37,522 nucleotides of DNA from positions 1 through 37,522 of the forward strand of contig LXFE01000586.1 of NCBI GenBank assembly GCA_001929475.1, in the 5' to 3' direction. The DNA is from Neolecta irregularis DAH-3 (lineage: Eukaryota; Ascomycota; Neolectomycetes; Neolectales; Neolectaceae). Both the position numbers and the translations under genes were made by a program. Under the pieces are notes generated by a model. That model did no database searches. It saw nothing but the letters and a program-made list of their open reading frames with translations, and was not told the DNA's origin. Below are positions 1,320 to 37,504 of the stretch, piece after piece; the first letter of the stretch is position 1; every line of letters starts with the position of its first letter.

Positions 1320-4300
1320 ATGCTATCCGCCAAACAAAAAGAGAGACAAGTTCTGCCTACCAATGTTCGACCAAGTACTTCGGAGCCCAATTGAAGAATC
1401 CTGACTTTCTTAGGAAATTACAAATTAACTCTGAACCCCGATTTCAAAGCATTCGATTATGACGGAACTGTTGTCGTTACTCTTGATGTCAATGAGACTA
1501 CCAACACTATCAAATGCAACTCTACGGAAATTCAGATTCACAAAGTCAAGATTGAGCAGAATGGTCATACGTACGGCTTAACTCAATTGGTTCGATTCTG
1601 ATAGTATAGCCAAACTTCCAGCTCGATTACTTTTCTCGATGATGATCAGTCAGCCACATTCACCTTTGATGAAGCCCTCAAACCTGGCTGCGAAGCAAAA
1701 TTAACTATCAAATTCACGGGACAAGTATTCACATTGTTCATATGCATACGCGTTTTAACAATCCTTAGTTAAACGATAAGATGGCCGGTTTCTATCGATC
1801 AAGCTACATCGATAACGTCACTGGGGAGAAGAAATATCTCGCTACAACTCAAATGGAACCGACAGATTGTCGACGGGCATTGCCTTGTTTTGACGAACCT
1901 GCTCTGAAAGCGACCTTTGATGTATCTCTTATTTGTGATAAGAACCTTGTAGCACTTAGTAACATGGATGTCATTGAAGAAAAGGATTCTGAAATCGAAG
2001 GGAAGAAGATCACTACTTTCCGGACTACTCCGTTGATGAGTACATATGTATTGGCTTCAGTTAATAATGACTGACGACTTAGCTTCTGGCATTTATTGTT
2101 GGTGATCTCAAATATGTGGAAACCTTTACTTCTGGAGAGCATGGAAAACCAATTCCCGTTCGGGTTTATGCTACTGCAGGCTATGAAAAGCAATCTCGGT
2201 TTGCTCTTGATCTCGCTGCCAAGACTCTTGATTTCTTTTCTGAAATCTTCGGAATTGTATATCCTCTACCAAAATTGGATAACGTCGCAATTCCAGACTT
2301 CTCGTAACTCTCTAGAGATTGCTCGTGTGACTGTTTAGCGCTGGAGCCATGGAGAACTGGGGTTTAGTTACCTATCGAGTCGTTGATCTTCTTTATGATG
2401 AGGATAAAGCTTCTGCTGCCACTAAGCAGCGAGTGGCAGAGGTTGTTCAACATGAACTCGCCCATCAATGGTTCGGAAACCTTGTAACTATGGAGTTTTG
2501 GGACGGCCTTTGGCTGAACGAAGGATTTGCGACCTGGATGAGTTGGTTCAGTTGCAATAAGTTTTTTCCAGAGTGGCGGGTATGGGAGAGTTATGTGACA
2601 GATAACCTACAGCAAGCTTTGAGACTTGATGGTATGTGTTGTTGTGTATCAGGTTTTTACTTTACAGCACTGAGAAGTTCTCATCCCATACAGGCGGAAG
2701 TCTTTCGCGCAGACGAGATTAATCAGGCAGAGTCCTTGTGAATAAGCTCATTGCTTATTATTAGATTTTTGATGCGATCTCCTACTCCAAAGGATCATGC
2801 GCTATTCGAATGGTTTCCGTATATCTCGGCGAAGATGTCTTTCTTGCAGGTATCCGCAGATATCTCAAAAAACATGCATATGGAAATACCAAGACATCTG
2901 ATCTCTGGGATGCGCTTTCCTTGGAAAGCGGTAAGGATATCTCCAGAGTCATGAGTATCTGGACGATGAACGTTGGATTTCCAGTCATCACTGTCACTGA
3001 AGACTCAAACTCTATCAAACTTCGACAAACCCGATTCTTATCGACAGGAGATGTTAAAGAAGAAGATGACACAGTTCTATACTGGGTTCCTCTCGCAATG
3101 ATAAATAACGATACTTCAAGCCATCATATCGAGAGTTTCTCTGAGAAAGAAGTCACAATCCCTATATTAGACCTCGAATTCTACAAGTTGAATCTTGCTC
3201 ATAGCGGAATTTATCGAACCAATTATCCTCCAGAACGCCTCCAGAAGCTTGGGCAAGCTGGTAAGCGAGGCCTTTTGAATGCTGAAGATCGCGCTGGTCT
3301 CGTCGCTGATGCTGGGGCTCTATCAGCGAGTGGTCATTCGAACACTAGCTACTTTTTAAATCTCGTCTCCCAATGGACTGAGGAATCAGAATTCGTGTAC
3401 GTTGGTATCTAAACTTTTTCATGATATACTAGTGTTTGGGGAGAAATGCTCGCTCGAATTGGCGCAATTAAAGATGCGTGGGGTTTCCAATCTCCAGAGA
3501 TCGTTCGAGCACTAGAGAAACTGACAATTGCTCTGACTGGTCCGAAGGCCAAGTCTCTCGGATGGGAATTTTCAAAAGACGAAGACCATATCAGTGCACA
3601 ATTCAAAGCTCTACTGTTTGGTGTTTCTGGTATGGCAGGTGACCCGGAGATTGTCAAGGCTGCTCAGGATATGTTTGAAAAATTCGTTTCCGGCCAACAA
3701 TCTGCGATACATCCGAATATCAGAGGGTATTACTATCTCATCCTGTGGAATACTGACGTGATAGATCCGTGTATAGTATTGTTCTGAAGAATGGAGGGGA
3801 AAAGGAATGGAATGAAGTCCTTAATATCTACAAGAACCCTTCAAGCATCGATGAGAAAAACATAGCCCTCCGATCTTTGGGACAAACTCGAAAATTAGAA
3901 TTGATCAAGAAAACATTAGATCTTGCCTTGTCGGAAGATGTCCGGGAGCAAGATATCTATCTACCATTCCAAGGGTATCTTTTTGACCATCACAGTCTTT
4001 TGCACTAAACATCAAGTGTGCGATCCCATGCCAAGGGAATAAAACAACTTTGGGAGTTTGTACAGATCAAATGGGATACCATTGCTGGTCGACTTCCACC
4101 AGGCCTGTCCATGCTGTCGACAGTGGTTCAACTCTGTACTATAGGCTTCTGCAGCGATGACGCTATAAAAGACATCAAGGCATTTTTTTCCACTAAGAGT
4201 ACCAAGGGTTTCAATCAAGGGCTTCAGCAGAGTCTAGATAGTATCCAAGCGAAGGCCTCATGGGTTAAGCGAGACGGGGAGGACGTGCGAGCTTGGTTGC

Positions 4301-4326
4301 AGATGAAGGGCCACCTTGCCAACTGA
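1320..4326 (+). CDS. M1-family zinc aminopeptidase (puromycin-sensitive type, Ape2/Aap1-like)
   Basis: A zinc exopeptidase that removes N-terminal residues from peptides, probably cytosolic. The spliced protein is 874 aa, the usual length for fungal Ape2/Aap1. Visible in order: N-terminal segment RQVLPTNVRP, the substrate-binding GAMEN motif (residues about 278-282), zinc site HELAH (314-318) and the third zinc ligand Glu in LNEGFA (about 337). The C-terminal helical domain runs to the stop. Ten introns: 1375-1413, 1571-1609, 1725-1768, 2048-2082, 2304-2338, 2632-2667, 2727-2764, 3397-3432, 3727-3764 and 3975-4016 (35-44 nt). The seventh is GC-AG. Unspliced, the locus looks like a pseudogene. 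Spliced, it is exactly 875 codons with all key residues. The symbol is left blank because APE2 and AAP1 cannot be told apart here. Confidence 0.93.
2727..2764 (+). other. GC-AG intron in the aminopeptidase gene (38 nt)
   Basis: The exon ends ADEINQ and resumes IFDAISYS, which is contiguous in M1 aminopeptidases. The removed segment begins GCAGAG and ends ATTAG. No GT nearby restores this frame. It is the only GC intron here that does not begin GCATG. Confidence 0.75.
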
Positions 4327-36900: not shown

Positions 36901-37504
36901 CTTATGGGGCCTCACTTGGCCTCCGACTGGAAGAAGGTATTGTTGAATTTTCAGTGTATCGCAGTCCGAACAGTGCTTTGGCGTTTTCCAAGGCTAGGGA
37001 AATTGTGCATGATTTCAAGAGTGGGAGAAAGGAGTTTGAGCAACTGGCGCTGGATAGCGCCAAGAGTTCATTGGTTTATTCTACTGTACCGAGTGGTATG
37101 GAATCTGCTGACGGTAGGTTTCTGTGGAGAGCAGTTTGTTGAAAGCGGTAATTGTTGGGGTGGATGTATTTGACTGGTAGGCTAGTTCTGGGTTTCTGAC
37201 GCAGGTGTTGCAAAAGCGGCCGGCGGGGTACCGAAGGGATTTCCTGGACAAGATCTGCGTTTGTTGTTTCTTGTTTGATTCTAATAGTAGAATGTGACTA
37301 TTGACGAACTGAAGAAGATGTTGGACAAGTATATTAGCAAGATTTTTGAGGGGGAGACGTCGCGGGTGGCAGTAGTTTGTAGTGGTGGGAAATCCGAGGT
37401 ACGTTGATCAAGAGCTGTAATAATTTTAGATTTTGGAAAAGGATTATCGAGAGCTGGGGTTTGAGGTGAAAGTTGAGAGTCTAGAGTCATTTTACGCGAT
37501 ATAA
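33924..37504 (+). CDS. M16C zinc metalloprotease, fungal Sdd3/YOL098C-like
   Basis: An insulinase-clan protease homologous to yeast YOL098C and fission yeast SPAC3H1.02c. Its substrate is not established. The product is about 1009 aa. The inverted zinc motif HTLEH is at residues 65-69 in GCPHTLEHLVFLGSTKYPYKG, followed by GTNAWTAVDHTAYH, GVVFSEMQGREN, YPEGNGYRSQTGGLMEAL, PHVAILGKPSA, VNPVKRNDGTTLDW, LPSIESCFSIHFSRGP and GAGLAYGASLGLRLEEG. Sixteen introns of 29-47 nt fit, including one of 29 nt (34491-34519), several of 31-33, and a GC-AG intron. The start at 33924 is chosen because homology begins soon after it. An in-frame ATG at 33858 exists. The boundary near 35850 has two solutions (41 or 44 nt). 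Confidence 0.9.
34491..34519 (+). other. 29-nt intron, the shortest in the window
   Basis: Begins GTGTTTTAAA and ends GAAATCAG. Removing it joins MAAAYAA to RALYPEGNGYRSQTGG, an uninterrupted block in homologues, and no other GT/AG pair restores frame. Confidence 0.75.
36286..36318 (+). other. GC-AG intron in the M16C protease gene (33 nt)
   Basis: Begins GCATGCGC, ends CGATGCAG and has a CTAAC branch-like site. Removal joins IFDPAR to VGVTLSKMLNDLPSQ, as in homologues. Confidence 0.75.

Follow-up and report, generated by a model that had tools for sequence, protein, structure and literature searches.

Evidence for spliceosomal introns of about 31-50 nt in three genes of the fungus Neolecta irregularis and in a wider sample of its genome

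Three genes of the window and their introns

The window, by which we mean the whole stretch of 37,522 nucleotides (nt) analysed here (contig LXFE01000586.1), comes from Neolecta irregularis DAH-3, a club-shaped fungus of the Taphrinomycotina (Ascomycota) with a published genome of 14.5 Mb, 44% GC and 5,546 genes, and with RNA sequencing (RNA-seq) support for 99.4% (PMC5309816). Its genes are interrupted by very short segments that we read as introns. Three genes, coding for an M1 aminopeptidase, the DNA polymerase delta subunit B (Pol-delta B) and an M16 metalloprotease, were compared with homologous proteins and are listed below. Unless a line says otherwise, an intron is placed by homology and the deposited model removes the same segment; P0242 is the aminopeptidase orthologue of a close relative.

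1320..4326, + strand: M1 aminopeptidase (Aminopeptidase 2) gene, 875 codons with stop, 10 introns, by homology; deposited protein P0241
1375..1413, + strand: M1 intron, 39 nt
1571..1609, + strand: M1 intron, 39 nt
1725..1768, + strand: M1 intron, 44 nt
2048..2082, + strand: M1 intron, 35 nt
2304..2338, + strand: M1 intron, 35 nt
2632..2667, + strand: M1 intron, 36 nt
2727..2764, + strand: M1 GC-AG intron, 38 nt, by homology, P0242 agreeing; the deposited model removes 2732-2764 plus an extra 2819-2859
3397..3432, + strand: M1 intron, 36 nt
3727..3764, + strand: M1 intron, 38 nt
3975..4016, + strand: M1 intron, 42 nt
29821..31488, + strand: Pol-delta B gene, 481 codons with stop, by homology; spliced as in deposited protein P0001 ('DNA polymerase subunit delta-2')
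30205..30246, + strand: Pol-delta B intron, 42 nt
30479..30516, + strand: Pol-delta B intron, 38 nt as deposited; homology alone gives 30489-30523, in a variable loop
30639..30675, + strand: Pol-delta B intron, 37 nt
30775..30810, + strand: Pol-delta B intron, 36 nt as deposited; homology alone gives 30763-30810
31181..31217, + strand: Pol-delta B intron, 37 nt
31320..31354, + strand: Pol-delta B intron, 35 nt
33867..37504, + strand: M16 metalloprotease gene (NEOLI_001494), 1028 codons with stop, 17 introns, by homology
34093..34131, + strand: M16 intron, 39 nt, by homology; kept as coding in the deposited model
34481..34512, + strand: M16 intron, 32 nt
34753..34783, + strand: M16 intron, 31 nt, by homology; deposited as 34726-34783
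34908..34943, + strand: M16 intron, 36 nt, by homology; deposited as 34902-34943, a possible alternative
35053..35083, + strand: M16 intron, 31 nt, by homology; one deposited intron of 216 nt (35070-35285) replaces this and the next
35254..35285, + strand: M16 GC-AG intron, 32 nt, by homology and gene model
35459..35491, + strand: M16 intron, 33 nt
35777..35807, + strand: M16 intron, 31 nt, by homology; deposited as 35723-35807
35870..35901, + strand: M16 intron, 32 nt
36150..36182, + strand: M16 intron, 33 nt
36231..36262, + strand: M16 intron, 32 nt, by homology; one deposited intron of 104 nt (36215-36318) replaces this and the next
36286..36318, + strand: M16 GC-AG intron, 33 nt, by homology and gene model
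36543..36573, + strand: M16 intron, 31 nt, by homology; the deposited model reads through and removes 36633-36669 instead
37086..37117, + strand: M16 intron, 32 nt
37148..37180, + strand: M16 intron, 33 nt
37259..37290, + strand: M16 intron, 32 nt
37399..37429, + strand: M16 intron, 31 nt, by homology; the deposited protein continues into this segment, stopping at 37404 ahead of an in-frame TGA

The introns were located with our own GeneWise-like aligner, which aligns profiles of 60 fungal homologues per gene to the DNA. The identified Neolecta proteins and P0242 were left out of the profiles, and any intron of 12-400 nt with a GT or GC donor and an AG acceptor was admitted at one equal penalty. 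The spliced alignment yields 6 introns in Pol-delta B, 17 in the M16 protease and 10 in the M1 aminopeptidase, 33 in total, and all of them are 31-48 nt long (median 35). Neither a frameshift nor a stop remains. When only GT donors are allowed, 32 introns are found, 31 of 31-48 nt and one of 71 nt. When no splice-site rules are applied, the alignment opens 32 gaps with a median of 36 nt, 29 of them at 31-45 nt and the others at 15, 65 and 65 nt; the exact GT-AG register is present in 10 of the 32, compared with 0.5% of random gaps. For the majority of the 33 introns, the deposited proteins also omit the segment in question or one that overlaps it. P0242 (source 'jgi', 852 amino acids, 86% identity to our first M1 model) has a longest contig of 2,673 bases, which allows at most 117 bases of non-coding DNA and leaves no room for introns, and it therefore represents a complementary DNA or an intron-free copy. 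Judged by comparison of DNA with protein, these segments of about 31-50 nt are genuine spliceosomal introns. Their splicing in cells is supported indirectly, by the RNA-seq figure of 99.4% in the genome paper (PMC5309816) and by P0242.

Short introns in the wider sample

The wider sample consists of 20 sequences with 227,522 letters, namely the window and 19 stretches of 10 kb, with about 1,900 N in two stretches. Stretch L009 (86% N) was excluded before every count, and L001 was excluded as a repeat of the window. Introns in the sample were predicted with a gene finder, whose first motif-trained runs started from generic fungal motifs. Without splice motifs, a fourth-order coding model proved too weak and gave many false long introns, and a second-order model was used instead. 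In the flat-prior run, the motifs were trained on the 33 homology introns and the length prior was flat over 15-300 nt. In the length-prior run, the prior was taken from the 33 homology introns, so the length spread is partly assumed; introns below 29 nt are disfavoured and the branch window favours 5-12 nt, and part of these spreads therefore stems from the settings. Neither the branch-window bias nor the length-prior bias affects the homology set.

The length-prior run predicts 379 introns in 75 genes. Their lengths are unimodal and short over most introns, the mark of minimal introns, with 355 of the 379 at 28-52 nt and a median of 37 nt. Because 282 of these 355 short introns lie outside the window, the effect is not local. 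The density of short introns is 3.1 per kb of coding sequence, or 4.7 per gene, and the window itself has 75 predicted introns in 11 genes, 73 of them of 28-52 nt. The flat-prior run predicts 247 introns, of which 156 are 28-52 nt long and 4 are shorter than 28 nt. Five runs with decoy dinucleotide pairs under the same flat prior give 31, 28, 23, 23 and 21 introns at 28-52 nt; the decoys had no second donor form, and the second form (GC) accounts for 3 of the 156 real short introns. The results show that the excess of short introns in the sample is more than chance. A run with GT and AG only, with neither splice motifs nor a length prior, gives 79 introns, whose lengths peak at 35-44 nt and tail off broadly.

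Avoidance of lengths divisible by three was also considered and is not supported, such lengths being present in 87 of the 282 introns outside the window and in 13 of the 33 homology introns. Short introns that are both divisible by three and stop-free make up 33 of 342 (9.6%), a class that the gene finder probably under-detects; one figure in print for fungal GT-AG introns of this class is 9.2%. The consequences of splice errors by retention look ordinary.

Anatomy of the introns

The donor is weak and GTATGT-like, with 1.52 bits at positions +3 to +6, the branch adenine stands in a YTRAY-like motif, and the introns end mostly in YAG. The 282 predicted introns outside the window have median distances of about 27 nt from donor to branch and about 8 nt from branch to end. 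In the homology set, 30 of 33 introns carry the adenine of their best branch-like motif 6-10 nt from the 3' end, and the median distance from donor to adenine is 26 nt; for this count two Pol-delta B introns were moved to their deposited positions, and the lengths then range from 31 to 44 nt. The branch motif played no part in locating the homology introns, and the motif search itself began from a generic fungal motif. Among 240 predicted introns outside the window with the branch at most 12 nt from the end, the donor-to-adenine distance has a median of 27 nt and a 1st percentile of 22 nt. In the same subset, the intron length tracks the donor-to-adenine distance (r = 0.86, standard deviation 2.9) more closely than the adenine-to-end distance (r = 0.50, standard deviation 1.7), which sets the two distances apart, the first varying and the second hardly. 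The lower edge of the length distribution is sharp: the minimum in the homology set, 31 nt, is reached by 5 of the 33 introns, even though the aligner admitted introns down to 12 nt.

ACTGAC, the commonest of three branch hexamers tried, is present in 5.4% of introns. Of the 355 short introns, 43.1% contain CTRAY and 84.8% contain YTNAY, figures to be read with the knowledge that the prediction rewards such a motif, and to be compared with the 30 of 33 in the homology set. The boundaries are those of U2-type introns, with 30 GT-AG and 3 GC-AG introns among the 33 (the only forms allowed), and so is the branch motif upstream of the acceptor. The U12-type donor RTATCCTT starts none of the 33 homology introns. 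A loss of the branch signal as in Paramecium or Bigelowiella was not encountered in the Neolecta introns. According to a rule in print, intron-rich species have weak splice signals (PMC2483917), and the weak donor and branch motifs of Neolecta fit this rule.

These data bear on a preliminary description of the window, made from its letters. The very short introns that it proposed are recovered by homology, and a compressed donor-to-branch distance is seen in the 240 predicted introns. The 875, 481 and 615 codons that it gave agree with the spliced models of the M1, Pol-delta B and aldehyde dehydrogenase genes, whereas its 1018 codons for the M16 gene are 1028 here. Its figure of 88 introns in 16 genes was not reproduced; the gene models here have 75 introns in 11 genes.

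GC-AG introns

GC donors are used in 3 of the 33 homology introns. With GC admitted as a second donor after an exonic G, they are used in 19 of 358 short introns of the sample, 12 of the 19 beginning with GCAT; eleven other dinucleotides under the same penalty give 0-3 introns each. At exon position -2, a site that plays no part in the model, A is found in 13 of the 19 GC introns versus 148 of the 339 GT introns. The 19 predicted GC-AG introns are spread over stretches L003, L004, L005, L006, L008, L010, L011, L012, L013, L019 and L020 and the window. In the length-prior run the GC-AG share is 17 of 355, while the flat-prior run gives only 3 of 156. Homologue support exists for three GC-AG introns only, one of them supported also by P0242, and the share is therefore an estimate between about 2% and 9%. 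In fungi overall, GT-AG introns make up 98.7%, so all non-GT-AG introns together amount to at most about 1.3% (PMC7072748). GC-AG introns may be unusually common in Neolecta; a share of 5% would be high for fungi.

Deposited gene models

The deposited models reproduce 22 of the 33 introns exactly, 6 of 6 in Pol-delta B (where two introns had been set to the deposited positions), 9 of 10 in the M1 gene and 7 of 17 in the M16 gene. Among the 11 that are not reproduced exactly are all three GC-AG introns, which the deposited models miss, and one intron (starting at 34908 or 34902) that may go either way. Against profiles built without Neolecta, the corrected models score 1,383 versus 1,284 bits and 1,235 versus 997 bits, a comparison that is partly circular because the same profiles made the models. 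At the GC-AG intron of M1, P0242 gives independent support to the corrected model. By these protein comparisons, two of the three deposited models are mis-spliced in places, at the GC-AG introns and around some short introns. Public N. irregularis proteins, which are used in arguments on the origin of fungal multicellularity, can thus carry splice errors that resemble divergence or loss.

That genes might be missing from the annotation was rejected, as protein searches with three genes found all of them among the deposited proteins. The expectation in the preliminary description that gene finders would call such genes pseudogenes does not hold in this form, given these three annotated genes and the 5,546 genes with 99.4% RNA-seq support, but a weaker version of it does, in the mis-splicing of two models out of three. 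A second N. irregularis M16 protease, NEOLI_000842 (P0122), lies on a contig of 54,872 bases and is 52% identical to that of the window. Its match to the family profile is split into two pieces (940 bits), and its deposited model may therefore be mis-spliced too.

Splicing machinery

Genome searches covered 8.96 Mb in 363 contigs out of the 14.5 Mb assembly, and the absence of a gene there therefore means little. Slu7 and Prp18 were found, as were the U5 small nuclear RNA (snRNA) and the U2 snRNA, the latter over its whole length with the GUGUAGUAUCUGUUCUU region. A U2AF35 homologue matches the fission-yeast sequence used as query at 65-68%. The U2 gene is located as follows.

G000:C160:7780-7971 (L014 7780-7971), - strand: full-length U2 snRNA gene, 132.8 bits

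There is no sign of special machinery among the located parts, which do not include U1, U6 or Prp8, the components of greatest relevance here.

Comparison with known introns

Published median intron lengths are 56 nt in Schizosaccharomyces pombe, 55 in Cryptococcus neoformans, 61 in Aspergillus fumigatus and 32 in Encephalitozoon cuniculi, the last from 13 introns (PMC2483917), and 45 in Pneumocystis jirovecii, 45 in Pseudocercospora fijiensis and 50 in Peltaster (PMC7181583). The Neolecta median of 35-37 nt is below that of every fungus in these two sources except the nearly intron-free E. cuniculi. The preliminary description had also placed the lengths below those of usual ascomycete introns, which agrees with these medians, but its frame of a filamentous ascomycete does not apply, the fungus being a member of the Taphrinomycotina, where short introns were already known from P. 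jirovecii. Like Neolecta, P. jirovecii has a high intron density and short introns and belongs to the same subphylum, but its median is about 8 nt longer, its GC content is 29.1% and it is animal-associated, whereas Neolecta forms multicellular fruiting bodies.

S. pombe shares with Neolecta the U2-type introns and the CTRAY branch motif. Its median branch-to-3'-end distance is 12 nt, mapped mostly in longer introns (PMC4079972), compared with 8 nt in Neolecta, and its donor information is 3.9 bits in the table passage of PMC2483917, compared with 1.52 bits. In 1,211 orthologues, Neolecta has 4,202 introns, about 26% of them independently acquired, versus 862 in S. pombe (PMC7940399). E. cuniculi has introns of similar size and has kept the branch motif (PMC2483917), but it is intron-poor with a strong branch consensus, whereas Neolecta is intron-rich with a weak one. 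Minimal introns are 25 nt long in Paramecium, 19 nt in the Bigelowiella nucleomorph and 25 nt in Dicyema (PMC2483917). They resemble the Neolecta introns in their narrow length distribution near a floor, but are shorter and have no branch signature, whereas the Neolecta branch is recognisable and stands at a nearly fixed distance from the acceptor.

The word 'intron' is absent from the main text of the Neolecta genome paper (PMC5309816), and our literature searches on Neolecta turned up no statement of intron lengths or of the GC-AG share. The finding extends a known trend and opens no new kind. It gives a number for how small introns get in an intron-rich fungus with a readable branch site, and it distinguishes genome compaction via intron shrinkage from compaction via intron loss.

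Discussion

We consider it very likely that these are ordinary U2-type introns that have shrunk, throughout the sampled genome, to near the lower size limit of the spliceosome, with intron number remaining high. Short introns of this kind would be recognised as units by intron definition. With about 8 nt from branch to end, there would be no room for a polypyrimidine tract, and the first AG after the branch would be used. Deletion pressure together with little selection for extra length may have shrunk the introns to a steric floor, as in the related Pneumocystis. The sharp lower edge is in the data; the floor behind it would be physical, in that a donor-to-branch distance of about 22 nt (about 21-22) could not shrink further and still fit the spliceosome. 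Length varies mainly via the donor-to-branch part, some donors are GC, and no special spliceosome would be needed.

Several observations weigh against this reading. The GT-only alignment kept one stop (M16) and one frameshift (M1), both of which are resolved by GC donors, and 22 of the 32 rule-free gaps lie off the exact GT-AG register. The best branch motif is far (20-30 nt) from the 3' end in 3 of the 33 homology introns. The flat-prior run places 79 of its 247 introns at 78-300 nt, where the decoys place 81-121; these predictions are mostly noise in real and decoy runs, and some real longer introns may be hidden. The intron calls come from comparison of DNA with protein, not from mapped RNA reads. 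U6, SF1 and Prp8 domain IV were not found in the 8.96 Mb, nor did the control genomes give a match, and no convincing U2AF65 was seen there, the TIGR01642 matches being sub-threshold RNA recognition motifs (RRM) only. Because such parts are expected in any splicing organism, the missing ones more likely reflect incomplete assembly or split exons.

The opposite reading, in which the segments are assembly indels or signs of gene decay and no introns at all, has nothing in its favour beyond the caution voiced in the preliminary description itself and is already refuted for practical purposes: the gaps measure 31-48 nt, not 1-2, no frameshift remains once GC donors are allowed, the splice dinucleotides and motifs recur in other contigs, and the deposited proteins and the relative's protein skip the same or overlapping segments. 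The preliminary description had suggested a specially adapted spliceosome, for which we found no evidence. Changes in U1, U6, Prp8 or related parts would here allow GC donors and a smaller distance between donor and branch, and the short introns would have co-evolved with them. This would suit the sharp lower edge at 31 nt, the 1st percentile of 22 nt, the weak donors and a GC-AG share (3/33, 17/355 or 19/358) that stands against at most 1.3% of non-GT-AG introns in fungi. It is nevertheless very unlikely, as the located parts (U2, U5, U2AF35, Slu7 and Prp18) look conventional, related fungi already have short introns (medians of 56 nt in S. pombe and 45 nt in P. jirovecii) and the flat-prior run has only 3 GC donors in 156 short introns. 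We also regard as unlikely the broader proposal of a spliceosome at its physical floor (21-22 nt from donor to branch, 5-6 nt from branch to end), with relaxed donors (about 5% GC) and measurable changes in the 5' splice-site machinery, acting on introns that would be shorter as a set than any reported from an intron-rich fungus.

Shrinkage of ordinary U2-type introns is compatible with shared inheritance, in which the shortening dates back to a common ancestor of Neolecta and Pneumocystis and not to Neolecta alone. The median of 45 nt in P. jirovecii (PMC7181583), the 5 introns per gene in Pneumocystis (PMC4764891) and the many more introns that both keep in the 1,211 orthologues than S. pombe or Taphrina (PMC7940399) point in this direction. 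Medians of 56 nt in S. pombe and 261 nt in Novakomyces olei, both of the same subphylum, and of 50 nt in Peltaster and 45 nt in Pseudocercospora, which are short outside it, point the other way. We hold this origin to be a genuine if tentative possibility.

Other genes and features of the window

The remaining genes were assigned from gene models unless a line says otherwise.

6185..7187, - strand: IF-2B-family gene, by family match and gene model, 5' boundary approximate, predicted intron 6795-6828; presumably MTNA-like
7770..9886, - strand: RabGAP-TBC gene, predicted introns 9744-9786, 8935-8967, 8711-8745 and 8458-8498
11962..13518, - strand: gene without a Pfam match in the two open frames tested, predicted intron 12845-12881
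13810..13856, + strand: intron of 47 nt, read by eye only, in a V-ATPase-G-like gene
13958..14008, + strand: intron of 51 nt in the same gene, read by eye only
14682..16715, + strand: aldehyde dehydrogenase gene, 615 codons, predicted introns 15185-15234, 15419-15453, 15610-15643, 15804-15838 and 16412-16446
17123..18170, - strand: short-chain dehydrogenase gene, predicted introns 18111-18149, 17815-17853, 17499-17534 and 17330-17369
22023..25400, - strand: M16C presequence-protease-like gene, 12 predicted introns of 32-43 nt, by Pfam on the first 619 amino acids of the spliced model
25555..27180, + strand: taxilin gene, predicted introns 25765-25800, 26191-26223, 26370-26407, 26655-26702 and 26862-26901
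31469..33489, - strand: methionyl-tRNA synthetase gene, 9 predicted introns of 32-41 nt

The spliced aldehyde dehydrogenase protein matches Aldedh positions 6-461 of 461; the length-prior run gives 603 codons through a doubtful extra intron, 14907-14942. In the gene at 11962-13518, a predicted intron of 227 nt (13087-13313, - strand) probably covers at least one further exon together with short introns. Transfer RNA scans of the window and the 19 stretches found none. A candidate miniature inverted-repeat transposable element at 262-769 of the window has 22-nt terminal inverted repeats that are 95% complementary, and copies of it are present elsewhere in the genome, two over most of the length at 88-89% identity together with several fragments.

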